A stretch of DNA of 42,335 bases from IMG/VR virus record IMGVR_UViG_3300017598_000626, positions 1 to 42,335 of that record; one strand, 5' to 3'. The translations under genes were made by a program, and so were the position numbers. This document shows positions 2,988 through 42,335 of this stretch, in pieces. The stretch comes from a virus. Numbering within the stretch: position 1 is the first letter of the stretch; every line of letters starts with the position of its first letter. Below the pieces are notes generated by a model. That model ran no database searches, was not told where the DNA came from, and saw only the letters and a program-made list of their open reading frames with translations.

Positions 2988-3018
2988 TTGCATAATCTGT
3001 GCAATTGCTTTACATTTG
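2988..3018 (+). promoter_or_regulatory. Early rightward promoter with overlapping operator
   Basis: TTG at 2988-2990 is separated by 20 bp from TACATTTG at 3011-3018, a full match to the Bacteroidota promoter. The -33 element is covered by the inverted repeat TTGCATAATCTGTGCAA (2988-3004), TTGCA-N7-TGCAA. The same operator in the same place occurs at 20166-20182 and 39744-39760 on the other strand. Drives the helicase-loader/sigma operon. The non-coding stretch 2910-3049 holds nothing else I can identify. Confidence 0.75.
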
Positions 3019-3049
3019 AAGAACAGAAAGGAAATTTAAAACCAATACA

Positions 3050-4024
3050 ATGACAATGAGCAATTTTGAAGAATGGAAAGAGGCTAAATTACAAAAGATC
3101 TGGGATCTGTACTCTGACATTGATGAGGACAAAAGAATTGACTCCATGTTGCCAGAGCATAGGATTGAGTTTCTTGACGATTCAGAGCGAATGAGAGAGA
3201 TATCAAACATCTCAAATCCATTCAAAGGAAAAGTCAAACTTGAGTCATCTCAATATGACAATGACAAAGTTGTCAAAGACATCAAGGAGACAACGAAAGG
3301 AAAAAGGACCTCAATGAGTAAAGCAAGAGAGGAATATCTCATGAAATCAATTCCTGAATATGGGGAAAAGATAAGAGATTGCTATGTTGAGAAAAAGAAA
3401 TCTCCTGTCAGATTACCAAAGTATGATCAAGCGATTGAAGTCTTTGGAAAGCTTTTCTTGGAGAAATCTTTTCATGACTCTGACTTTGTTGTTGATGATT
3501 TCAACAGAAATGCAATTAAAAAGCTCCTCATGTACTTCATTGGAGACTCTGATGTTGAGGACCGGTCAAAGGTTATTGGAGGAACTCTTGACCTAAACAA
3601 AGGAATTTATTTATTTGGAGATGTTGGGTCTGGGAAAACAAATCTGATGTATCAATTGTATTTATTCCTCAAGGAATTCAGATTTGAAAAGAGATTTCAA
3701 TTCAATGATTTCAAGCAAACGATTGAGATTTGTTCCAGCAAAGGGATTCAGTATCTTGATAAGTTCAAATCTGGAGACTGGTGTCATGATGAGTTGATCT
3801 CAAAAGATGTCAATAACTATGGAAATAAAATTGAACCAGCTCAATCAATCATTTGCACAGCTTACAACCGATATATAAAGACAGGAGGATTGACTCATTT
3901 CACTGGGAATGGAACTCCTCAAGAGTTAGCCAAAGCGCTCGGACAAGTAGCATATTCAAGATTGAGTCACATGAATAACTATATTTTTATGGGGCAAATT
4001 AACAGGAGACCAAACAACGACTAA
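3050..4024 (+). CDS. DnaC-like helicase loader ATPase
   Basis: 324 residues. The P-loop GDVGSGKT lies near residues 190-197 in the context YLFGDVGSGKTNLM. A Walker B-like acidic pair is at about 245-250 (CHDELI), and the C-terminus ends in a DnaC-type block (AYSRLSHMNNYIFM). The N-terminal half is charged and helical and could bind the helicase. Members of this family load the replicative helicase; no phage DnaB is present, so the host helicase is the likely partner. ATG at 3050 gives MTMSNFEEW; ATG 3056 is an alternative. The gene follows an operator-controlled promoter and precedes tightly packed early genes. Confidence 0.75.
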   Translation: MTMSNFEEWKEAKLQKIWDLYSDIDEDKRIDSMLPEHRIEFLDDSERMREISNISNPFKGKVKLESSQYDNDKVVKDIKETTKGKRTSMSKAREEYLMKSIPEYGEKIRDCYVEKKKSPVRLPKYDQAIEVFGKLFLEKSFHDSDFVVDDFNRNAIKKLLMYFIGDSDVEDRSKVIGGTLDLNKGIYLFGDVGSGKTNLMYQLYLFLKEFRFEKRFQFNDFKQTIEICSSKGIQYLDKFKSGDWCHDELISKDVNNYGNKIEPAQSIICTAYNRYIKTGGLTHFTGNGTPQELAKALGQVAYSRLSHMNNYIFMGQINRRPNND

Positions 4025-4026
4025 AA

Positions 4027-4359
4027 ATGGAATTTGAACCAATGGACCTTGAGACAGCTGTTGAGCACATTGCAAGACAAAAGGAAATCCAATACAGGGA
4101 GAACATATTCATCAGGAAAACAAAGATCAGATTTGACATTGAATTTGTCAGCAGAAAGTTAGCTGATGAGTTTTCCTTTGCCTGGGCAACCAGCATAAGA
4201 GATCTTTATGATGGAGATTTTATTTTGTTTCTTCATTACCTGGACGATGGAAGATTGATTCCTATTCCTAAGATGTATAAACCAGGACCAGCTCCAACAG
4301 TTCAATTAAAATTAGTCAAAGGGTGTCAACGACCAGAGAAAAGGCTCCCATTTTTTTAA
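4027..4359 (+). CDS. Hypothetical protein, 110 residues
   Basis: Not recognised. It lies two bases after the helicase loader stop and three before the VRR-NUC gene, so it belongs to the replication operon. The product has an N-terminal helical part with many Arg/Lys/Glu and a C-terminal part rich in Pro and Gly (GRLIPIPKMYKPGPAP). It has no cysteine pairs typical of zinc sites and no membrane segment. A role as accessory replication or recombination factor is inferred from position only. Confidence 0.65.
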   Translation: MEFEPMDLETAVEHIARQKEIQYRENIFIRKTKIRFDIEFVSRKLADEFSFAWATSIRDLYDGDFILFLHYLDDGRLIPIPKMYKPGPAPTVQLKLVKGCQRPEKRLPFF

Positions 4360-4362
4360 GAT

Positions 4363-4863
4363 ATGGCAAAGAAAACAAGATACACACTAGAGGAGTTTAA
4401 AAGAGACTTTGGAACCAAAGGAGGAAAGATTGTCAACAAGACTGAAGAGATGGAGCAAGCGGAGTTGATTGTCTGGATTAAAGAAAAATATCCTGATGTC
4501 CTTTATACTGTTGACCTTGGAGGAGTACATCTCACGCCACAACAAAGAAAGATCCACAATACAAGATCTAGGAGAGGACATCCAGATTTGATGTTTCAAG
4601 AGTGGTTCAAAGATGATTTTTGTGGACTAGCAATTGAGTTCAAGCCAACAGGAAAAAAGTTGAGCATGAAAATCATCCTTGAAAATGACCACTTAAAAGA
4701 ACAATGGGAGTACATCCAACTACTAAAGCAAAGAGGTCACATTGGAGGATTTTGCTCTGGAATATTTTGTGCAAAAAAAGTAATTAATGCATACTTAGAA
4801 GGAACGGAGAAAAGTTTAAAAATAATTGATCATTACTTATTCCCTCCACAATCAACAAAATGA
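4363..4863 (+). CDS. VRR-NUC-type nuclease
   Basis: 166 residues. The PD-(D/E)XK-like core of VRR-NUC proteins is visible: an N-terminal helix with E29-E34 (EEMEQAEL), then RRGHPDL with Asp75, then IEFK with Glu92 and Lys94, then a Gln-containing helix (LKEQWEYIQLLKQRG). VRR-NUC enzymes cut branched DNA; phage copies are often Holliday-junction-type resolvases in replication operons, which fits the neighbours. Its stop overlaps the start of a tiny membrane peptide by ATGA. Confidence 0.8.
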   Translation: MAKKTRYTLEEFKRDFGTKGGKIVNKTEEMEQAELIVWIKEKYPDVLYTVDLGGVHLTPQQRKIHNTRSRRGHPDLMFQEWFKDDFCGLAIEFKPTGKKLSMKIILENDHLKEQWEYIQLLKQRGHIGGFCSGIFCAKKVINAYLEGTEKSLKIIDHYLFPPQSTK

Positions 4864-4931
4864 ATATATTAACAAGCATCATAATAGGATTATTACTTGG
4901 ATGGTGTATATCAACGACAAAAGATGACTAA
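4860..4931 (+). CDS. Membrane microprotein, 23 residues
   Basis: ATG 4860 overlaps the stop of the nuclease gene (ATGA), and the ORF runs into the first codons of the sigma factor gene (overlap 8 bases). The product is a short hydrophobic helix (NILTSIIIGLLLGWC) followed by a polar tail ISTTKDD, so a single membrane-spanning peptide. Overlaps on both sides suggest translational coupling. Function unknown; it could be only a coupling device for sigma factor translation. Confidence 0.5.
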   Translation: MNILTSIIIGLLLGWCISTTKDD

Positions 4932-5814
4932 AACGAAAGGACTCAAAAAGTTTTCAATTGGAAACTCGATCACAGTAAGAGATACGAAAGCAATAAAATC
5001 CTATTTTTACGAGCTGAACACAATCGACACAGCTCCAATGCAAAAGGATCAAGAAATCATTTGCTTTGAAAAGTATCAAAACGGATGCAAAAAGTCAGGA
5101 GAGAGAATCCTCCACTCAAATCTAAGATTTGTTGTCAGTGTGGCGAAAGCTTTTCACAGAGGAAATCCTTGTCTTGAGGTCAACGACTTAATCCAGTGTG
5201 GCAATATCGGACTCATGACAGCAATGAGAAAGTATGACATATCAAAAGGCTTTAAATTCATTTCTTATGCTGTTTGGTGGATTCGACAACATATACTTGA
5301 GGAAATCAAAAACAACTCCAACACAATCAAGATTCCTCAAAATGCAAGACACATCCAAGGACTACAAGATACATTTGTTTCCAAGTTCTATAATGAAAAC
5401 GGATTCAATCCTTCTCATCATGAAATTGCTCAAGCTCTATCCACTACAAAAGAAAACATTATGTTTTTAAATAATTCGTGTTTTGTAAAGAGCATTGATG
5501 ACAAAGTTGCTGATGATGACTCTCCAGTACTAAAAGACATAATTCAAGGAGAATCAAATGAGTTTGACAAGATATTTGCTGATGATGTCTCCAAGAGTCT
5601 TGAGGATGCTTTTAAATGCCTTAAAGAAAAAGAGAGGCACGTTCTGTCTAAACTATACAATTTAAACGATGAGGACAAATCTGTTGGGCTCTTGAGGCTA
5701 TCTCATGAAATGGGGAAAACAAGAGAAGGAATCAGACAGTTGAGAAATAGAGCACTTGAAAAGATTAGCAAGTATTCAATTGAAAATAACATGGAATTAT
5801 TAAATTTTTGGTAA
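4924..5814 (+). CDS. Phage sigma-70 factor of the Bacteroidota primary-sigma type
   Basis: 296 residues from ATG 4924; an in-frame ATG at 4897 lies inside the preceding microprotein and is less likely. Region 2 is well conserved: NLRFVVSVAK near residue 67, then DLIQCGNIGLMTAMRKYD, then GFKFISYAVWWIRQHIL near 109-125, which covers the core-binding and -10 recognition helices. Domain 3 follows (HHEIAQALSTT), and domain 4 has a helix-turn-helix (SHEMGKTREGIRQLRNRALEKI). The size and sequence resemble the short host primary sigma, so it may have been captured from a host. It would redirect host RNA polymerase, probably to late phage promoters. Being in the repressed early operon fits that role. 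Confidence 0.9.
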   Translation: MTKTKGLKKFSIGNSITVRDTKAIKSYFYELNTIDTAPMQKDQEIICFEKYQNGCKKSGERILHSNLRFVVSVAKAFHRGNPCLEVNDLIQCGNIGLMTAMRKYDISKGFKFISYAVWWIRQHILEEIKNNSNTIKIPQNARHIQGLQDTFVSKFYNENGFNPSHHEIAQALSTTKENIMFLNNSCFVKSIDDKVADDDSPVLKDIIQGESNEFDKIFADDVSKSLEDAFKCLKEKERHVLSKLYNLNDEDKSVGLLRLSHEMGKTREGIRQLRNRALEKISKYSIENNMELLNFW

Positions 5815-5815
5815 G

Positions 5816-6040
5816 ATGAGCAACCAAGAAAACAAAAGCGAATTAAAAGAGACAACTGGATCTTGCTGCTGTACTGTCACGCTCTCACTTTCCAGCTCTT
5901 GCGCTCCAATGACAAATGTGACATACATCACAGATCGACAAGTTGGAAACTACAAGAGAGCGCTATCCAGTAGAAAGAAGAAAAGAAAGGAACCATCAGA
6001 AAAGATATATTTTTATTCAAAACGAAAAACAAAAAGATAA
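5816..6040 (+). CDS. Cys/Ser-rich small protein, 74 residues
   Basis: Not recognised. It begins one base after the sigma stop and ends overlapping the next start (TAATG). The N-terminal half has a CCC triplet and another Cys in a Ser/Thr-rich stretch (SCCCTVTLSLSSSCAP); the C-terminal half is very basic (SSRKKKRKEPSEK). The basic tail suggests nucleic acid or membrane-surface contact, but nothing specific can be named. Confidence 0.6.
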   Translation: MSNQENKSELKETTGSCCCTVTLSLSSSCAPMTNVTYITDRQVGNYKRALSSRKKKRKEPSEKIYFYSKRKTKR

Positions 6041-6258
6041 TGCCAATACAAGAAACAAAAGCAATCAAAGCAACTTGCGATAAATGTGGAAAACCTTTTG
6101 TCAGTTATCAAGGAGTTGAATTATTCAAGGATGCTGTCTCTATAATGACCGATATACAAGACAAGCTCTGGAAGGCTCAAGGAGGTCAATTATTGTGCTT
6201 AAAATGCTTTGATGTACATTCAGAGAATGAGAACATCAATGAGCTTAAAATTGTTTAA
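6040..6258 (+). CDS. Small zinc-ribbon-like protein, 72 residues
   Basis: Two CxxC knuckles, CDKCGKPF near residue 14 and CLKCF near residue 54, separated by a helical stretch, form a likely four-cysteine zinc site. Small zinc-ribbon proteins are frequent in early phage operons, where they bind DNA or RNA polymerase; a role next to the phage sigma factor is attractive but unproven. The start codon overlaps the previous stop. Confidence 0.65.
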   Translation: MPIQETKAIKATCDKCGKPFVSYQGVELFKDAVSIMTDIQDKLWKAQGGQLLCLKCFDVHSENENINELKIV

Positions 6259-6261
6259 AAA

Positions 6262-6339
6262 ATGTACATTTTAAAGATGATAATTATTTTTATAGTATTG
6301 TTGTGTCTTGGATCGTTGATCAGAGATGTGATGAAATAA
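6262..6339 (+). CDS. Membrane microprotein, 25 residues
   Basis: A short ORF (ATG 6262, stop 6337-6339) between two accepted genes, spaced three bases from the upstream stop. It encodes one hydrophobic segment (MIIIFIVLLCLGSLI) with a short charged end (RDVMK). It is the second single-span microprotein in this early operon. Support is only position and hydrophobicity. Confidence 0.4.
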   Translation: MYILKMIIIFIVLLCLGSLIRDVMK

Positions 6340-6348
6340 ACAAATAAC

Positions 6349-6570
6349 ATGACACAGGCAGATTTTTTGAGAAAGCATGGAGGCGATGAGTTTGCATTCC
6401 ATAAGATAGATAAACACAAGATAATTACTTATACTAATACAGTAATGGGCATTTCGGTAAAAGGGTCAATCAAATTCCATTCAAATTTAGAAAGCGTTGA
6501 GGATGGACACACTTTGATGGCAGAACTCGAGGAGCTTGAGATATTAATACTTAAGCCAATAAAAGACTAA
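6349..6570 (+). CDS. Hypothetical protein, 73 residues
   Basis: Not recognised. Last gene of the early rightward operon, followed at once by a strong bidirectional terminator. The product is acidic and soluble, with alternating beta-type stretches (KIITYTNTVMGISVKGSIKF) and a helical acidic end. No motif is visible. Confidence 0.6.
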   Translation: MTQADFLRKHGGDEFAFHKIDKHKIITYTNTVMGISVKGSIKFHSNLESVEDGHTLMAELEELEILILKPIKD

Positions 6571-13546: not shown

Positions 13547-13576
13547 TTGCTTTTATGCTTAAAATGGTTATATTTG
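13547..13576 (+). promoter_or_regulatory. Bacteroidota-type promoter
   Basis: TTG at 13547-13549, 19 bp spacer, TATATTTG at 13569-13576. It lies right after the terminator and 22 bases before the ATG at 13599, so it likely drives the 13599-17218 operon. No TTGCA-N7-TGCAA operator is present here. Confidence 0.6.
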
Positions 13577-17218: not shown

Positions 17219-17278
17219 AAAACCTCTCTGGGTTTTTTGAATTGAGCTCCTCTCCAGTAATGGAGGGAGCTCTTTTTT
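17219..17278. terminator. Two adjacent terminator hairpins between convergent operons
   Basis: First: AAAACC/GGTTTT (17219-17236) followed by T-run. Second: GAGCTCC (17244-17250) with GGAGCTC (17266-17272) plus an inner CTCC/GGAG pair, followed by T6. The second overlaps the stop codon of the methyltransferase gene on the other strand. Confidence 0.75.
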
Positions 17279-18461
17279 ATTTGTACTCGTGACCTAAAAT
17301 ATAAGCTATTACAGCAACTGTCCAGCCATTGCCTAACATTTTATAAAGCTGACTATCTGAAACGCCACAATTCAACATCTTTTCAATAGCCCATTCTGGT
17401 ACAGTTTGCAATCTCATACACTCTTTAGGTGTTAACCTCCTAATCTTTGCATCCTTCCATTGACAAAAATCATAATTCGCAGCAGTAAGGCAATTGCTTT
17501 TATCTTCCATTTTTCGCCCTCTTCTTGTCTTTGAATCAATAAAGGTTAAATCTACACAGTCACCGTCTTTGATTTCTGCATAGCCTTGTTTTGTTGCTTC
17601 TGGCACTATTAGAATATTATCTTTTTGAACAGAAGTAAGGCAGTTTGTTTTAAAATCCTTTCTTATCTCAATTTCTTGCTTTGACTTTCCTGCAATGCTT
17701 CCTTTTGCGTCTTGTCGTTTACCGTTTTCTTTATAACGTCCTCGCATTGCTCCACATTTAATTGCTATCATATCCATATCGGAATGATTGCCTCCACTAT
17801 TACCGCCAGCAGTAAAACAGGAAGCTTTATTTTGGTTATTCTCTGGGAATAGCTTTTTATCCAACTTCATGTAAAACTTTTCATCAACTTCCAATTCCAA
17901 AATATCTTTCAACAAAATACCTTTATCCTTTGGCTGCTTTATTCCTGGCTCTTCTATTCCAAATAGATTAGCAGTAGACGTTCCTATATTAGTCCAGTAA
18001 TATCTTAATCTGTTTTGTGCGCTCAGCAATGCAGAATTTATAATAACAGGCTCTATTCCCATGTACAAAGAAATCCTATGCGCCCACTCTTGCTTTTTAG
18101 GTCGCACATTTTCAAGCAGCCATTTTAAATTAGGGTTTGCTTCTTTACAAGATTTTAATATCCTAAGAAACTCAAAGAATAACTTACTCTCTTCGTGCTC
18201 AAAAGCTTTTCCATTTCCCGCTTGACTAAATCCTTGACAGGGCGATCCACCAACAACAAGGTCAAAAGCTGGCAAAGAATTAATATCTATTTTGGTAACG
18301 TCTCCCAGTTCGATTGTATTAGGGAATAGTGTATTGCTTACCTTGTTAGCATATTTGTCTATTTCACTAACATACAATTCAAATTCAACACCTAAACTAT
18401 GCAGGGCTAACCCTATACAGTTCATCCCATTAAATAAACTTAATACTTTTATTTTTTTCAT
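17277..18461 (-). CDS. Cytosine-5 DNA methyltransferase
   Basis: 394 residues with the C5 motifs in order: I, LSLFNGMNCIGLAL (7-20); IV, GGSPCQGFSQAG with catalytic Cys75; VI, LLENVR (115-120); VIII, QNRLRYYW (149-156); IX, RRLTPKECMRLQ; X, MLGNGWTVAVIAYI near the end. The variable target-recognition region (about 165-330) is long and unrelated to anything I recognise, so the target site is unknown. No restriction endonuclease gene is next to it, so it probably protects phage DNA from host restriction. It is the last gene of a leftward operon under the operator-controlled promoter at 20152-20182. Confidence 0.92.
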   Translation of the reverse strand: MKKIKVLSLFNGMNCIGLALHSLGVEFELYVSEIDKYANKVSNTLFPNTIELGDVTKIDINSLPAFDLVVGGSPCQGFSQAGNGKAFEHEESKLFFEFLRILKSCKEANPNLKWLLENVRPKKQEWAHRISLYMGIEPVIINSALLSAQNRLRYYWTNIGTSTANLFGIEEPGIKQPKDKGILLKDILELEVDEKFYMKLDKKLFPENNQNKASCFTAGGNSGGNHSDMDMIAIKCGAMRGRYKENGKRQDAKGSIAGKSKQEIEIRKDFKTNCLTSVQKDNILIVPEATKQGYAEIKDGDCVDLTFIDSKTRRGRKMEDKSNCLTAANYDFCQWKDAKIRRLTPKECMRLQTVPEWAIEKMLNCGVSDSQLYKMLGNGWTVAVIAYILGHEYK

Positions 18462-18467
18462 GTCGTT

Positions 18468-18708
18468 TTATTTATCAAAATCTGACCATCCGTCAAGGAA
18501 ATTTTCCCCTTGCCTCAAGAACCAAAACTCCTTCCAATTCAAAATATTTTTATTCTCATCCTTGAACAATCCTCCTTCCATGAATACAAATTCATTATCA
18601 GAGAATAGCCAATGAGTCACTCTCTTTCCTTTTAAGAGTAATTCTTTAGCCTGTTTTTTGTGTTAAGTATTCTGGTAAGTTGATAGGGCATGGATCCATT
18701 ATCATCAT
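18468..18708 (-). pseudogene. Small protein gene split by a one-base frameshift; remotely like DUF2829/Tad2-type proteins
   Basis: ATG 18708 overlaps the upstream stop (ATGA) and starts MMIMDPCPINLPEYLTQK; the frame stops soon after an A6 run (T6 at 18654-18659 on the + strand). In the next frame the ORF continues as AKELLLKGKRVTHWLFSDNE, FVFMEGGLFKDENKN and WKEFWFLRQGENFLDGW to a stop at 18468, six bases before the methyltransferase. Removing one A restores one 79-residue protein. The pattern 'A..LL.GK.V......E.v' plus a Trp-rich end recalls DUF2829 proteins, which include the anti-Thoeris factor Tad2; this resemblance is by eye and weak. It may be a sequencing error, a true inactivation, or a recoding site. 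Confidence 0.55.
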
Positions 18709-19109
18709 GATTGTTTGTTTTTAATTTTACCTAATTTAATTACAAAATATTTTATGCCACAAATGGCCCCCCATTCTGGACTACCTTCTCTTATTTCTAT
18801 TCCTTTGAATTCAATCTCAAATTGTGGGCGATCCTTTGCGTATCCGTTAGAGAAAGTAACCGTATCGAATGAATTACCCTGTATTTCATTTCTTTTGAAA
18901 TAGTAAGATACTAAGTCGGGCAAATCTTCTGGATAACAGTATGACTCTTCAAACACACCTTGTTTTTTATGGTGATGCATTGTTTTAAAATCTACTAACC
19001 TACTTAGGTAGTGCGTTTTAATTTCTCTATATTCTTCTTTCTTTTCGCCTGATAATATCATATCAAACCATTTCTTTTTCAAATTCAGGTGCAATGTCTT
19101 TTTTTTCAT
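18705..19109 (-). CDS. ASCH/PUA-like domain protein
   Basis: 134 residues. The start LHLNLKKKWFDMILSGEKKE followed by EYREIKTHY is the hallmark of ASCH-domain proteins (L.lk..w.d.I..G.Ktve.R), and the C-terminus gives further strands (EIEFKGIEIREGSPEWG). ASCH domains bind RNA or modified nucleic acid bases. Its stop overlaps the start of the next gene, which lies upstream of the methyltransferase. A link to base modification or reading of methylated DNA is inferred from this neighbourhood. Confidence 0.8.
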   Translation of the reverse strand: MKKKTLHLNLKKKWFDMILSGEKKEEYREIKTHYLSRLVDFKTMHHHKKQGVFEESYCYPEDLPDLVSYYFKRNEIQGNSFDTVTFSNGYAKDRPQFEIEFKGIEIREGSPEWGAICGIKYFVIKLGKIKNKQS

Positions 19110-19120
19110 GTCGTTATTTT

Positions 19121-19525
19121 TTAAAAATCCTTTATACGTTTAGTTAAATCCTTTACTGTATTAAACAACTCTTGACCTTCTTTTGATTCCCTCTCTTCAG
19201 GTGAAAGGAGTTTGTATTTATCGTTTTCCAACTTCAATTGACTGATCAAATCATTCAAACTGTCTCCTTGATCTTCTTTTTCTAGCATTAAACCGATAGA
19301 GATGAATGCTGCTATAATTAAAAGGAAAGGCTGTTGATAAAAAAGAGCTAGTAAGCAAAATCCAAGCACAATGAATGCAAGAACAGAGGCAATTGAAAGA
19401 AAGATAAAAGCCAATAACATTGGAATATTAATCAGCAATGACTTGCTCTTTGGCTTTACATCGTTTGACAACATGAAGGAGTAGGCTCTTTTGTTTAAGT
19501 CGTATAACTTGTTTTTTATATTCAT
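19121..19525 (-). CDS. Membrane protein, 134 residues
   Basis: Not recognised. Two hydrophobic segments in residues 30-80 (LLINIPMLLAFIFLSIAS and LGFCLLALFY, then LLIIAAFISIGLML) form a hairpin; the C-terminal 50 residues are a charged helix (LISQLKLENDKYKLL). Overlaps the upstream gene by four bases. A membrane hairpin with a cytoplasmic coiled coil is compatible with superinfection exclusion or holin-like roles, without proof. Confidence 0.6.
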   Translation of the reverse strand: MNIKNKLYDLNKRAYSFMLSNDVKPKSKSLLINIPMLLAFIFLSIASVLAFIVLGFCLLALFYQQPFLLIIAAFISIGLMLEKEDQGDSLNDLISQLKLENDKYKLLSPEERESKEGQELFNTVKDLTKRIKDF

Positions 19526-19710
19526 TGTTTTTGTTTTATAAAAAATAACATTATTGATTCTTGCCTCTTAAAATGAATGTTTTTGTCAACCCCCTTATTT
19601 CTTTTGATCATTCCTTTTAATTGTTCTCTGCTGAAATCTTCGTAAAATTCACACCAATACTCTACTAAAGATTGATGTCCTATAGTACTTTGGCTATTAA
19701 ATTCTGGCAT
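19522..19710 (-). CDS. Hypothetical protein, 62 residues
   Basis: Not recognised. Starts at ATG 19710 and ends in a four-base overlap with the next gene. Contains a Trp/Tyr-rich acidic stretch (LVEYWCEFYEDFSREQLKGM) and a basic C-terminal half. Supported by the overlap and by position in the operon. Confidence 0.55.
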   Translation of the reverse strand: MPEFNSQSTIGHQSLVEYWCEFYEDFSREQLKGMIKRNKGVDKNIHFKRQESIMLFFIKQKQ

Positions 19711-19736
19711 AGTTTTTAATATTCGGTTATTTCGAA

Positions 19737-20123
19737 TTATTCAACTTGTGCTTGTTTCGCACAAGTTGAAGTCCAAAGATTAGATTCTATTTTAGGCCAG
19801 TCAACAATCTGAACTGGATGAGACTTAAATACAACTTTCAACTTTTGATTTGTGGACTTTTTAATGACATTGATTGTCTTTGTCCTGTTGTAACAGATTT
19901 GTCTGATTAGTTTTTTGTTGATCTCTGGAAAGTTTAGGAATTTATTTTGAATCTTGAAAAGATATGCAATTGCATTTCCAAGGCTATCTTCGAAAGAATC
20001 ATGACAATCTCCATTTTTGAGAGGATTGCTCATGTCGTAAATGTATAATTCAACCTTTCTGCAGTACGGTCTCACACTTGAGAGCTCAATGATGTGCTTT
20101 GCTTTCGTTTGATTCTCTGTCAT
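19737..20123 (-). CDS. Hypothetical protein, 128 residues
   Basis: Not recognised. First gene of the leftward operon controlled by the operator at 20166-20182; its ATG follows the AAACGAC leader motif by six bases. The middle is basic (NRTKTINVIKKSTNQKLKVV), so nucleic-acid contact is possible. The last nine codons lie in a perfect 12-bp inverted repeat (19740-19770). Confidence 0.6.
   Translation of the reverse strand: MTENQTKAKHIIELSSVRPYCRKVELYIYDMSNPLKNGDCHDSFEDSLGNAIAYLFKIQNKFLNFPEINKKLIRQICYNRTKTINVIKKSTNQKLKVVFKSHPVQIVDWPKIESNLWTSTCAKQAQVE
19740..19770. repeat. Perfect inverted repeat, 12-bp arms
   Basis: TTCAACTTGTGC, seven-base spacer, GCACAAGTTGAA. It overlaps the 3' end and stop of the 19737-20123 gene. 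No U-run follows on either strand, so it is not a standard intrinsic terminator; it could be an RNA processing or protein-binding site. Confidence 0.6.
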
Positions 20124-20151
20124 TTCATGTCGTTTAAATTAAAAGAATAAT

Positions 20152-20182
20152 CAAATATACAATAATTGCACACAATATGCAA
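20152..20182 (-). promoter_or_regulatory. Early leftward promoter with overlapping operator
   Basis: On the minus strand, TTG (20182-20180), 20 bp, then TATATTTG (20159-20152), a perfect Bacteroidota promoter. The inverted repeat TTGCA-N7-TGCAA (20166-20182) covers the -33 element exactly as at 2988 and 39744. Drives the methyltransferase operon. Confidence 0.8.
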
Positions 20183-25989: not shown

Positions 25990-26001
25990 GTATTAAAATA
26001 C
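25990..26001 (-). promoter_or_regulatory. Candidate late promoter element before tape measure gene
   Basis: On the minus strand GTATTTTAATAC followed by ACAAAAACTG, 35 bases before the ATG. The same 12-mer followed by AAAACAGAC lies before the major capsid gene at 27566. Not the TAnnTTTG type. Confidence 0.35.
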
Positions 26002-27565: not shown

Positions 27566-27577
27566 GTATTTTAATAC
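27566..27577 (+). promoter_or_regulatory. Candidate late promoter element before capsid gene
   Basis: GTATTTTAATAC (inverted repeat GTATT-TT-AATAC) followed by AAAACAGAC, 27 bases before the capsid ATG. Shares about 20 aligned bases with the element at 25990-26001. The gap 27545-27604 has nothing else notable. Confidence 0.35.
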
Positions 27578-36967: not shown

Positions 36968-37228
36968 TCAATCAAACAATCCTTTTTGATTCGGATTTGA
37001 ATCAATGGGATTGTTTTTGTCTGGACCTAGTTGATAGACTCCTCTTGATGGCCTATGGATTAATCCAGATTTGACCATTCTTGACAGTATCTCTCCAAAG
37101 TGTTTGTCTGTATTTGCATAATACAAGATATTAGTCTCTTTGATGAGCTCTCTCTTTGTCATTGGCTCTCCTTTTTCAGTGAGAGCTTTGATGACTTTTG
37201 ATTGATTTGGTGTGATTCGTCCTTTCAT
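36968..37228 (-). CDS. Winged-helix DNA-binding protein, 86 residues
   Basis: A compact winged helix: ITPNQSKVIKALTEKGEPMT, then KRELIKETNILYY, a recognition-like helix (KHFGEILSRMVKSGLI) and a wing RPSRGVYQL; a polar tail follows. Fits a small transcription regulator. It is the last gene of the leftward recombination operon (two bases after its neighbour), so it would be made early. It is a second candidate, besides 39839, for the repressor of the shared operators. Confidence 0.65.
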   Translation of the reverse strand: MKGRITPNQSKVIKALTEKGEPMTKRELIKETNILYYANTDKHFGEILSRMVKSGLIHRPSRGVYQLGPDKNNPIDSNPNQKGLFD

Positions 37229-37230
37229 TT

Positions 37231-37965
37231 TTATCTCTTTTTATCTTCGATTAATAATTTTGGTTTAGCCTCCTCCAGCAATTGAGCATCAAAAATGTTT
37301 TGTTGAGCCAACTCTGGCAACAAAGGATCCAGAGAAATCACTGGATATACTCTTGATTGATCCAGAACTCTTGATGACTTGACTTTTTTCACACTTAAAA
37401 AGAAAGGAACTTGAGCAACAGACTCTCCATTGATTTTCTTGATCATATCATAGGAATCAAGAATCTGATTAATAGATGACTTTGCAGCCATTGTCCTCAA
37501 CTCCCAAACTCCCAAGATCGGAACTTTTGCAATTATAAATCTCAATGTTAGAACCTCATTCCACTTTGGTTGAAATCTATCATTTGTCAAGTGCTCTTGA
37601 GTTTTATTCATGAAAGCCTCTACTCCTCCATATTTCTCATTGATAGTGGCAAGAGTTACAATTTTAAACTCTTTCCTCATTGATACAAAGAAAGTCTCTC
37701 CGTCCCCATAAGAATACAACTTTCCTTGATTGTTTCTGATTTCGTAAACGTGAGATATATTGAAGGAATCCTCATTGCAAGAAAAGCAAATAGGCAATTG
37801 ATTCATTTTAGGATAAAGCTGGTTGAAGATATCAACATATCTCTGATGATCAGAGGTTGCTTTGAAGTAGTCAAGAGATATTGGATATCCTTTTTCGCTC
37901 AACTCTCCAACCTTAATTTTTCCTATTATTCCCAAAGTTGGCTTTCTTTCTGTCTTTATTCTCAT
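37231..37965 (-). CDS. Recombination protein (RDF/gp3-like or ssDNA-annealing type), 244 residues
   Basis: Segments YPISLDYFKAT, ICFSCNEDSFNI, GDGETFFVS, WNEVLTLRFIIAKVPILGVW and ELRTMAAKSSINQILDSYD match, from memory, a phage family related to the phiC31 gp3-type recombination directionality factors and other DNA recombination accessory proteins ('GvWel.T.g..SSi'). Next to a RecB/Cas4-like nuclease it could equally be an annealing or single-strand-binding partner. No integrase exists here, so a role in DNA recombination or replication is more likely than excision. Confidence 0.55.
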   Translation of the reverse strand: MRIKTERKPTLGIIGKIKVGELSEKGYPISLDYFKATSDHQRYVDIFNQLYPKMNQLPICFSCNEDSFNISHVYEIRNNQGKLYSYGDGETFFVSMRKEFKIVTLATINEKYGGVEAFMNKTQEHLTNDRFQPKWNEVLTLRFIIAKVPILGVWELRTMAAKSSINQILDSYDMIKKINGESVAQVPFFLSVKKVKSSRVLDQSRVYPVISLDPLLPELAQQNIFDAQLLEEAKPKLLIEDKKR

Positions 37966-37978
37966 TGTTTTTGTCGTT

Positions 37979-38398
37979 TTATATGTTTATGTCAAACTCT
38001 TTTAATATTAATTCGATTAGTTTGATTGCGTATTTATTTATTAAATCAAGAGCTGGATCTTTTGATGAGTAATGATCCCCCCTAAAAACAACCGATTTAC
38101 CTTTTTGTATTGCAAGAAAAAACATTGGGTCATCCTCATAACTCATTAGGCCTGTTACAGAGTTGTATTTGTAATACCTTCTTAATGTTAATTTATACCC
38201 AGCTAAAGATTTAGACTCTATGATTATGTTGCTGGTTCTTCCTGTTGAGACGTAACTCCAAAAATACTCTTTAAACCTGTAAGTAAAGCAAAGAGGATTC
38301 ATTCCTTGCTGGTGCCATTGAACTAAACCAATAGCTTGATTTGTATCATTGTCAGAATGAATCAAGCTCATGATTTTTTCTTTATCTCCTTTAGTCAT
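37979..38398 (-). CDS. Hypothetical protein, 139 residues
   Basis: Not recognised. Overlaps the end of the nuclease gene by eight bases. Mixed alpha/beta; contains WHQQGMNPLCFTYRFKEYFW, YKLTLRRYYKYNSV and an acidic end. Position between a nuclease and a recombination protein suggests an accessory function in DNA processing. Confidence 0.6.
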   Translation of the reverse strand: MTKGDKEKIMSLIHSDNDTNQAIGLVQWHQQGMNPLCFTYRFKEYFWSYVSTGRTSNIIIESKSLAGYKLTLRRYYKYNSVTGLMSYEDDPMFFLAIQKGKSVVFRGDHYSSKDPALDLINKYAIKLIELILKEFDINI

Positions 38399-39677
38399 TA
38401 GGTATCACGTTTATAGTTTTATCCTCTTGATCAACACCAAACTCAATATTAAATTGTTTTGACATCCCCTCAACAATCTCCTTGACAGTTGGATCAACAA
38501 TCTCTTTCATGTGTGGCTTTTCAACTTTCTTTTTATTTTTAGACTTCACAAAGTCAGCCATCTCAATAATATAAACATTGTCTTTTATACTCTCCTGACC
38601 AAATTCAATGACTCCAAAGCCTCTCTTGACTGGAGATGGATCACTTGTCCAATTCTCTCTCAATGCTCTTTGCATCAATAAATCATGAGCAATTGGACCA
38701 TCAGTTTGATTCTTTAGAGAATAAGTTGGAGAGCATCTCCATTTTTTAGGAGCCCAATTGAATATATGAGTCACTGGAAGTATGTCGCCAAAGTTCTCAT
38801 TCCACATGTCTTTGTATGTTTTCAGCTGCAGCTCATGAGATTCAAAGAATCCTTTCCTACCTGATTTGAAATCAACAATTGTTTTGACTCTCTTTGATCT
38901 GAAATCCATCTCACAAACAAAATCCAGACAACCTCCAAGCTTCCATGTGTCAGAGACAAGAGGAAACTCTGTTGCAATTGGCTCAACATTCTTGTCAATG
39001 CAGAACTTTGCAAAGCTCAAAACGTCATTGTGTATCTTTTCAATCCAAGATCCAGCAAATTTCATATTAATACCGTTGTCAAGCATATACTCAATTGTGA
39101 TATCATCCAAAATGTCAAGATTTATTTTTAAGTCTTTAATGAATTGACCGATTATGATATGCATAAATGTTCCGTAGTCAGCAGCATCTTGAGATCTCTT
39201 GTCAGCAACTTCATTTCCAAGGTCTCCTCTCCATTTTGACAAGTAAGGATTGGAGAGAGCTTTGCTTGAGAAGCCTGTGACAGATAAATAAAACTTTGGA
39301 TCATCCTGGTCAATAGTACAATAGTATCTTTCTTTTCCTTTCTGGATTCTCTTGATTTTGAATGGAGATACAATGTGAGTATAATTCGGAGCAATGAAAT
39401 CCGCTTGCATCTCTTCATAAGATACATTTTTAAGCTCCATTTCTCCTCTTAATTGAGGAAAGCTTGCTGGATTGTCAATCATCTCTTTAATCAAGGAAAC
39501 TTGATCTCTCTTTCTTTCTGTGATTTCGAGGTCAACAATGATATCCTCTTTGTTTTCTTTTACTATATGAATAAAGGCTTTCCATTTTCTCTTACTTTCT
39601 TCATCTCTATAAATAGAGAAATAAAAATCTTTGTACTCTCCACAATAATTTCCTTTCCCTGATCTTTCAACTTTCAT
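38391..39677 (-). CDS. PD-(D/E)XK exonuclease of the RecB/Cas4-like type
   Basis: 428 residues. N-terminal part is a separate domain (1-130). The nuclease core follows: DYGTFMH with His173, Glu237 in ATEFPLV, Asp252 in GGCLDFVCE, Asp269 and Lys271 in VDFKSG, and Gln284-Tyr288 in ELQLKTYKDMW, all in the order of RecB-family nucleases. No iron-sulfur cysteines as in Cas4 proper are obvious. It would degrade or resect DNA ends for recombination. First gene of a leftward operon behind an operator-controlled promoter; three AAACGAC copies lie in its leader. Confidence 0.85.
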   Translation of the reverse strand: MKVERSGKGNYCGEYKDFYFSIYRDEESKRKWKAFIHIVKENKEDIIVDLEITERKRDQVSLIKEMIDNPASFPQLRGEMELKNVSYEEMQADFIAPNYTHIVSPFKIKRIQKGKERYYCTIDQDDPKFYLSVTGFSSKALSNPYLSKWRGDLGNEVADKRSQDAADYGTFMHIIIGQFIKDLKINLDILDDITIEYMLDNGINMKFAGSWIEKIHNDVLSFAKFCIDKNVEPIATEFPLVSDTWKLGGCLDFVCEMDFRSKRVKTIVDFKSGRKGFFESHELQLKTYKDMWNENFGDILPVTHIFNWAPKKWRCSPTYSLKNQTDGPIAHDLLMQRALRENWTSDPSPVKRGFGVIEFGQESIKDNVYIIEMADFVKSKNKKKVEKPHMKEIVDPTVKEIVEGMSKQFNIEFGVDQEDKTINVIPND

Positions 39678-39729
39678 TTTATGTCGTTTAAATGTCGTTT
39701 AAAATATATTTTTGTTGTCGTTTGTAGTG

Positions 39730-39760
39730 CTAAGATACAATAATTGCACATAATATGCAA
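39730..39760 (-). promoter_or_regulatory. Leftward promoter with overlapping operator (recombination operon)
   Basis: On the minus strand TTG (39760-39758), 20 bp, TATCTTAG (39737-39730), one mismatch to TAnnTTTG. Operator TTGCA-N7-TGCAA at 39744-39760. Same geometry as at 2988 and 20166. Confidence 0.75.
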
Positions 39761-39776
39761 GTATGATTGATATTTA

Positions 39777-39809
39777 TTTGCTTTTATTGTGCAAAAACTC
39801 CTATACTTG
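39777..39809 (+). promoter_or_regulatory. Rightward promoter of the candidate regulator gene
   Basis: TTTG at 39777-39780, 21 bp, TATACTTG at 39802-39809. A TGCAA half-site (TTGTGCAAAA, about 39788) lies in the spacer. ATG follows at 39839. Confidence 0.5.
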
Positions 39810-39838: not shown

Positions 39839-40126
39839 ATGACAAATACAGATAAGGAAAAAGAACTGAATTGTCTTTCAGTGAGAGATCTATATATAGA
39901 GATACTAAAAAGAATCAAGTCAAATTGTCCAACAACTAAGTCTTTTAGGGATTATGTTGTATCTTTGGGATTCTCTGAAAGAACATATTATGATATTGTT
40001 GACTTTGCTGATAAAGGGAAACTCCCAAAGGGAAAAGCAAAGCCTCTCCATGAAAACAAATTGAGTCTACTTTGTGAAAGGCTTAATATAGAATTTAAAA
40101 CTACTATGTACCTAGTCAAATATTAA
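39839..40126 (+). CDS. Candidate transcription regulator, 95 residues
   Basis: Small soluble protein divergent from the recombination operon, with the shared operator between them, as cI/cro-type regulators usually are. The segment TTKSFRDYVVSLGFSERTYY could form a helix-turn-helix, with a following helix and Lys-rich loop (KGKLPKGKAK). It ends with HENKLSLLCERLNIEFKTTM. No database-type motif is definite. Followed by a strong terminator, so it is a single-gene unit. Inferred to be the protein that binds TTGCA-N7-TGCAA, with moderate doubt; the wHTH gene at 36968 is the alternative. Confidence 0.5.
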   Translation: MTNTDKEKELNCLSVRDLYIEILKRIKSNCPTTKSFRDYVVSLGFSERTYYDIVDFADKGKLPKGKAKPLHENKLSLLCERLNIEFKTTMYLVKY

Positions 40127-40153: not shown

Positions 40154-40189
40154 GCCGTTTCTGATGTCGTTTTCAGAAACGGCTTTTTT
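40154..40189 (+). terminator. Strong intrinsic terminator
   Basis: GCCGTTTCTGA (40154-40164), eight-base loop, TCAGAAACGGC (40173-40183), T6. Ends the regulator transcript. Confidence 0.9.
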
Positions 40190-40326: not shown

Positions 40327-40357
40327 TTGCACGAATAAAATGTTTGTCATATATTTG
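40327..40357 (+). promoter_or_regulatory. Bacteroidota-type promoter
   Basis: TTG (40327-40329), 20 bp, TATATTTG (40350-40357), a perfect match. It has a TTGCA half at the -33 but no second half-site, so it is probably not under the shared repressor. Inverted repeat GTGC-N8-GCAC surrounds the -33. Drives the 40401-899 unit across the contig junction. Confidence 0.75.
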
Positions 40358-40400
40358 TATCAACAACAACGGTAATACTAACAAATATAAAACGACAATC

Positions 40401-40679: not shown

Positions 40680-40730
40680 ATCTATTTACTAATTAGTATT
40701 TTTTAATTAAAACGACAAAAACAAAGTATA

Positions 40731-42057: not shown

Positions 42058-42335
42058 ATGAAAAATTCAGAGTTTAAGTCTTTTTTGACAATACGAGGGT
42101 ACTCTTTTCTTGAAGAGAATAATATGATTGTTATCAACAATCAGGGTTATGTTGACCTTCGCAGCTTGACAAGCTTACCAGAGGGCATCCAGTTCAACAA
42201 TCAGGGTTCTGTTGACCTTGAAAGCTTGACGAGCTTACCAGAGGGCATCCAGTTCAACAATCAGGGTTCTGTTTACCTTCGCAGCTTGACAAGCTTACCA
42301 GAGGGCATCCAGTTCAACAATCAGGGTTCTGTTGA
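42058..42335 (+). CDS. Repeat protein, 5' part (continues at base 1)
   Basis: Starts at ATG 42058, 33 bases after the endolysin-like gene, and stays open to the last base. The N-terminus (MKNSEFKSFLTIRGYSFLEE) is unique for about 26 residues; a half repeat and then the 20-residue repeats follow. The reading frame at the last base (codon GA+C) matches frame 3 at base 45-47, which supports one continuous gene across a circular junction. Because the repeat units are almost identical in DNA, the true copy number may be higher than the four or so seen here. Upstream is only an A/T-rich spacer without a recognisable promoter, so it is probably co-transcribed with the preceding gene. Confidence 0.75.
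   Translation, partial: MKNSEFKSFLTIRGYSFLEENNMIVINNQGYVDLRSLTSLPEGIQFNNQGSVDLESLTSLPEGIQFNNQGSVYLRSLTSLPEGIQFNNQGSV
42170..42335 (+). repeat. 60-bp tandem repeats, right end
   Basis: Units begin at 42170, 42230 and 42290 (the last is cut at 46 bases by the contig end); a partial unit precedes at 42135-42169. The final 46 bases equal the first 46 of the window, consistent with a circular or terminally redundant assembly. Confidence 0.95.

Follow-up and report, generated by a model that had tools for sequence, protein, structure and literature searches.

A putative repressor regulon built on a shared operator-promoter unit in a phage with a likely Flavobacteriia-like host

In the lambda-type Cro/CI and P22 c2 regulons, a small helix-turn-helix (HTH) protein acts on 17-bp two-fold operators placed over early promoters, and a divergent layout with paired operators is part of the arrangement. 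The phage described here presents the same traits, the HTH protein being a predicted one (the product of ORF 39839, see below). Unlike in those regulons, the phage sites are scattered, one per promoter, and lie over Bacteroidota -33 elements; the candidate repressor has a single domain, no integrase or lysogeny genes are seen, and no sequence homology is detected. A second likeness is found in C proteins such as C.Esp1396I, which are HTH proteins of about 80-95 aa that govern, under autoregulation, the timing of DNA-modification genes. In contrast with C proteins, the 39839 product would regulate phage replication and recombination besides a methyltransferase. The operator sequence and spacing also differ from those of such proteins, and no restriction endonuclease is recognised beside gene 39839. 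Gene control in Bacteroidota phages appears to be little studied, and in the literature found, whose coverage is incomplete, no repressor-operator set is described for a phage of this phylum.

The window (the whole stretch of DNA analysed) is a virus record of 42,335 bases. Its ends are made of a 60-bp tandem repeat (42134-42335 and 1-121) and have a 46-bp direct repeat in common, so the map is probably circular and complete, with its point of closure within a repeat gene. Across the junction, the 60-bp repeats form a single open frame whose product is a series of 20-aa units (SLPEGIQFNNQG...) that are leucine-rich-repeat-like. By sequence resemblance, the host is likely to be Flavobacteriia-like. 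The best link to a host is the methyltransferase, which shares 47% identity with a methyltransferase from a Gilvibacter genome; the terminase and the head protease are about 25-30% like those of Flavobacterium, Polaribacter and other phages. Intergenic DNA makes up only 8% of the genome. Rfam and tRNA scans of the phage were empty, and Pfam and PHROGs scans recognised no integrase or lysogeny gene among about 53 proteins, many of which have no family match.

A sequence-only reading of this DNA had proposed that the inverted repeat TTGCA-N7-TGCAA forms, together with a promoter, a unit that controls three operons. An exact scan of the whole genome returned the three sites on which that proposal was based, and no other:

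2988-3018, plus strand: unit A, candidate operator TTGCATAATCTGTGCAA (2988-3004) over promoter TTG-N20-TACATTTG; the first gene of the operon is 3050
20152-20182, minus strand: unit B, candidate operator TTGCATATTGTGTGCAA (20166-20182) over promoter TTG-N20-TATATTTG of the methyltransferase operon
39730-39760, minus strand: unit C, candidate operator TTGCATATTATGTGCAA (39744-39760) over promoter TTG-N20-TATCTTAG of the exonuclease operon

The operons under these units are the following:

3050-6570, plus strand: operon A, with genes for a DnaC-like helicase loader (3050) and a sigma factor (start about 4924), and small genes
17277-20123, minus strand: operon B, with four small genes and a C5 cytosine methyltransferase gene (17277-18461)
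36968-39677, minus strand: operon C, with genes for a PD-(D/E)XK exonuclease, a 139-aa protein, a Gp3-like protein and an AbiEi-like winged-helix (wHTH) protein

Their description as replication/sigma, methyltransferase and recombination operons is borne out by the helicase loader and sigma factor, the C5 methyltransferase and the PD-(D/E)XK exonuclease, respectively. From this gene content, operons A-C are presumed to be early. The Gp3-like protein, encoded at 37231-37965 (minus strand) inside the exonuclease operon, is 'recombination directionality factor-like' (PF18897, E 5.7e-26); no integrase is recognised.

Three copies of TTGCA-N7-TGCAA compare with 0.17 expected, and three copies were reached in only 1 of 100 shuffles. 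All three are intergenic; instead of many equally good copies inside genes, which would have refuted the proposal, there are no exact ones. If up to one mismatch is permitted, eight sites are found versus 4.5 expected, and among the five inexact ones only that at 39778-39794 is credible, on position. The composite formed by the palindrome and a promoter in register occurs 0.013 times per shuffled genome (300 shuffled genomes, spacing 19-21 allowed). In promoter orientation, A, B and C all read TTGCATA-N3-TGTGCAA. This imperfect palindrome of 17 bp has the same 14 arm bases at every site, and its orientation never changes: TTGCATA is on the left and TGTGCAA on the right each time. A symmetric matrix built from the sites places A, B and C far on top, with the fourth site and in-gene sites distantly behind. 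The sequence statistics give good support to a unit of operator and promoter that three non-structural operons have in common: several copies of a dyad operator lie over phage promoters and are rare elsewhere in the genome, as is characteristic of a regulon. B and C agree at no fewer than 27 of 31 positions, perhaps because a single module was copied; their flanks are unrelated outside the -33 to -7 stretch. A has a different spacer and downstream half and keeps all 14 arm bases.

Three more promoters have to be considered, one with a weaker operator and two with none:

39778-39809, plus strand: unit D, weaker candidate operator TTGCTTTTATTGTGCAA (39778-39794) over promoter TTG-N21-TATACTTG of ORF 39839
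13547-13576, plus strand: promoter E, TTG-N19-TATATTTG of gene 13599, with TTGCT at -33 and no operator right arm
40327-40357, plus strand: promoter F, TTG-N20-TATATTTG of gene 40401, with TTGCA at -33 and no operator right arm

Site D, overlooked in the sequence-only reading, lies back to back with site C (39744), at a centre-to-centre distance of 34 bp or about three helical turns. Only the right arm of TTGCTTTTATTGTGCAA is intact, and a matrix made from A-C alone gives site D the same score as one in-gene site, so the case for it rests on position.

At all three exact sites the first TTG is found 20 bp before a Bacteroidota -7 element, as had been proposed, with one mismatch in the element of C. 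The reference is the host -7 consensus TAHHTTTG (sigma-ABfr type; PMC6847099), which is matched by A and B and missed by a single base in C (TATCTTAG) and in D (TATACTTG). When compared with primary-sigma promoters of Bacteroidota (-33 TTTG / -7 TAnnTTTG), A, B, E and F share a perfect -7 element with TTG 19-20 bp upstream. A difference is that all six credible Bacteroidota promoters of the phage have TTGC at -33, whereas in F. johnsoniae a -33 motif is hardly visible (PMC6847099). The right arm TGTGCAA is present in four of the six, and TGCAA occupies the right-arm position in 4 of 56 loose promoter matches versus 0.15 expected. Because E and F carry TTGC at -33 without the right arm, the left arm is partly promoter and is not independent evidence. 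Read from the sequence, the left arm doubles as the -33 element, and the right arm is the independent signal. A MerR-type spacer mechanism was also contemplated and dropped, since the promoters that lack the operator, E and F, are spaced in the same way. In F. johnsoniae, 4-5 nt separate the -7 element from the start (PMC6847099). Application of this distance predicts transcription starts near 3023, 20147, 39725 and 39814, relative to which the palindrome would span about -35 to -19.

Two gene products had been put forward as possible ligands of these sites:

39839-40126, plus strand: ORF 39839, candidate repressor of 95 aa with one domain
36968-37228, minus strand: last gene of operon C, encoding an 86-aa AbiEi_4-type winged-helix protein

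Gene 39839 is divergent from operon C. It is the only gene between a promoter of its own, overlapped by site D, and a strong terminator. The sites, their promoter register, their absence elsewhere in the genome, this divergent layout and the terminator are direct observations. Segment VVSLGFSERTYYDI of ORF 39839, as read from the sequence, fits an HTH signature. A single-sequence AlphaFold2 model of the protein (pLDDT 75) aligns mainly with lambda-repressor-like HTH proteins (such as HipB, P22 c2, C.Esp1396I and lambda CI), and a further comparison agrees; the fold match is only middling, with a best Z of 6.9, below 8, and Foldseek E values above 1 in the PDB. Searches against Pfam (E 0.1) and PDB sequences (E 10) gave no match, and for this reason ORF 39839 is not filed as a member of the lambda-repressor-like (XRE/Cro) HTH group. 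The 36968 product matches PF13338 (E 7.3e-6, above the cut-off); its structure model (pLDDT 50) was too poor to use. The divergent position of gene 39839, its own operator-overlapped promoter, its terminator and the predicted fold lead us to favour it over 36968, and make its product the likeliest repressor.

The reading that we prefer, with moderate confidence, is a putative autoregulated regulon for early shut-off, governed by a phage-encoded repressor that is most likely the 39839 product. TTGCATA-N3-TGTGCAA would be the operator of this HTH protein; a dimer bound there would cover about -35 to -19, so that RNA polymerase could not reach the -33 element. Occlusion of this kind would affect the promoters of all three operons (replication/sigma, methyltransferase and recombination), while binding to the weaker site D over the promoter of gene 39839 would result in negative autoregulation. 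The predicted block of RNA polymerase by a bound protein, already suggested from the sequence, fits the operator geometry. As to timing, early promoters might fire on entry and be shut as the repressor accumulates, and the phage sigma factor might then serve later genes. If one small protein controls three operons and its own gene, the scheme resembles shut-off of the Cro or C-protein type. A regulon of this sort is probable and of a known kind, and the sites and their promoter register are real; protein binding, the identity of the protein as 39839 and repression are what we infer. Immunity and timing had been mentioned as alternative roles. Timing, in the form of shut-off, is the better reading; immunity is without support because no integrase is recognised among the approximately 53 proteins, and the candidate is a one-domain protein of 95 aa. 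The result is a concrete set: four predicted operators, a single likely repressor and the predicted positions of transcription starts.

The conserved block might instead belong to the promoter itself, as a module in which the -33 element extends into the spacer and is read by the phage sigma factor or by an activator. The presence of TTGC at -33 in six of six promoters and the constant direction of the asymmetry of the palindrome are in agreement with this idea, and the phage does encode a sigma factor. We consider it unlikely, however, as the right arm is missing from two promoters whose -7 elements are perfect, and one would not expect inverted-repeat arms for sigma contact nor an activator that overlaps the -33 element in such a way. 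Furthermore, A and B have -7 elements of the host type, TAHHTTTG (PMC6847099).

Binding of the operator by the AbiEi-like winged-helix product of 36968 seems unlikely as well. Its match to PF13338 is above the cut-off and its gene belongs to an operon that carries a site, but the gene lies away from the operator pair, has no operator-overlapped promoter of its own, and encodes a protein whose model is poor.

Phages sometimes use host repressors, and a host regulator might bind the sites here if the phage had joined a host regulon. This seems improbable given that only three composites were found in 299 Flavobacteriaceae genomes, and that the bare palindrome occurs four times in one 3-Mb genome versus three times in 42 kb of phage; both counts bear on the question only if the host is in or near that family. 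Chance, or the recent copying of one promoter block without regulatory meaning, could account for the near-identity of B and C across the 31-bp block but is very improbable in view of the 14 arm bases kept by A despite its different spacer and downstream half, the unrelated flanks of B and C outside -33 to -7, and the 0.013 composites per shuffled genome.

Aside from the operator, the most enriched 8-mer in the genome is AAACGACA, with 13 copies on both strands versus expectations of 0.88 in a second-order model and 0.62 in shuffles. Eight genes (4924, 18461, 19109, 20123, 37965, 39677, 40401 and 40731), none of which is structural by position or match, have its AACGACA core over the start codon or at most 20 nt from it:

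39682-39723, minus strand: three copies of AAACGACA before gene 39677
37972-37979, minus strand: AAACGACA before gene 37965
20128-20135, minus strand: AAACGACA before gene 20123
18461-18468, minus strand: AAACGACA overlapping the methyltransferase start codon
19109-19115, minus strand: AACGACA overlapping the start codon of gene 19109
4913-4919, plus strand: AACGACA, 4 nt upstream of the sigma-factor start (4924)
40390-40397, plus strand: AAACGACA before gene 40401
40710-40717, plus strand: AAACGACA before gene 40731

Several leader motifs lie inside operons with no promoter nearby, which indicates a role in RNA rather than in DNA. Other fetched loci contain the motif about 1.2 times per 42 kb, so it is not general there.

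The intrinsic terminator of gene 39839, at 40154-40183 on the plus strand, has an 11-bp stem and a T6 tail (fold of -19.0 kcal/mol). Its 8-nt loop, TGTCGTTT, is the exact reverse complement of the leader motif AAACGACA, a match spotted after the fact. Perfect complements of the loop are found in 6 of 53 leaders, and among the 29,731 8-mers of the genome only TTGTTTTT has more perfectly complementary leaders. A given loop would be this 8-mer with a chance of 1.6e-5, a figure that takes no account of there being several terminators and motifs. The loop may be an imperfect duplication, given its resemblance to the stem arm GCCGTTTCTGA. Its complementarity to the leaders suggests an antisense layer. 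A tentative proposal, which we regard as possible though doubtful, is that one gene acts at two levels: the 39839 protein would repress the early promoters, and the loop UGUCGUUU of its mRNA would pair with AAACGACA leaders and block their translation. The eight loop-paired genes in early operons would then include those for the exonuclease, the methyltransferase and the sigma factor. Bacteroidota are not known to rely on Shine-Dalgarno sequences. If the loop pairs with the leaders, the repressor mRNA would itself be an antisense regulator in hosts without the usual ribosome-binding site, and this possible link between the repressor mRNA and the leaders of controlled genes is what would most interest a specialist. 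Pairing of a terminator loop with mRNA leaders has a precedent in RepG of Helicobacter pylori (PMC8295292); what the two cases share is a loop whose exact complement is present in leaders. Unlike RepG, the phage terminator ends a protein-coding mRNA, probably that of a repressor, the complement is present at eight leaders, and pairing is a prediction.

Relatives of the phage were sought in several collections, none of which contained a close one. Peptides of 39839, the exonuclease, the helicase loader and the terminase detected no homologous locus in viral contigs, and 39839 had no match in phages, plasmids and genome contigs. In 397 Flavobacteriaceae genomes, the exonuclease had no match, and 39839 gave seven weak ones at a per-genome E of 0.01, where chance would yield about 4; most of the seven contain internal stops.

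In viral contigs, the composite showed no clear general enrichment (54 matches at the right spacing versus 45 at the wrong spacing). TTGCATA-N3-TGTGCAA-N6-TA was detected in 43 contigs, once per fetched stretch and never as a multi-copy set. In six viral contigs (L006, L023, L036, L040, L049 and L050), a TTGCATA-type palindrome overlaps the promoter of a MarR-like winged-helix gene that the contig itself carries, in the same 20-bp register to TAnnTTTG; the MarR-like gene is unrelated. In viral contig L045, the composite is upstream of a tyrosine recombinase gene. L025, an unrelated contig, harbors three TTGCAA-type palindromes (at 244, 1896 and 10213), two of them in register with TAnnTTTG promoters, and is possibly an analogous regulon.

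In the phage itself, another palindrome, GTATTTTAATAC, is found at 25990-26001 (minus strand) and 27566-27577 (plus strand), about 30 bases upstream of genes 25955 (minus strand) and 27605 (plus strand), respectively, with 0.28 occurrences expected when one mismatch is allowed. Both genes are outside the early operons, and the palindrome may be a later promoter or operator.
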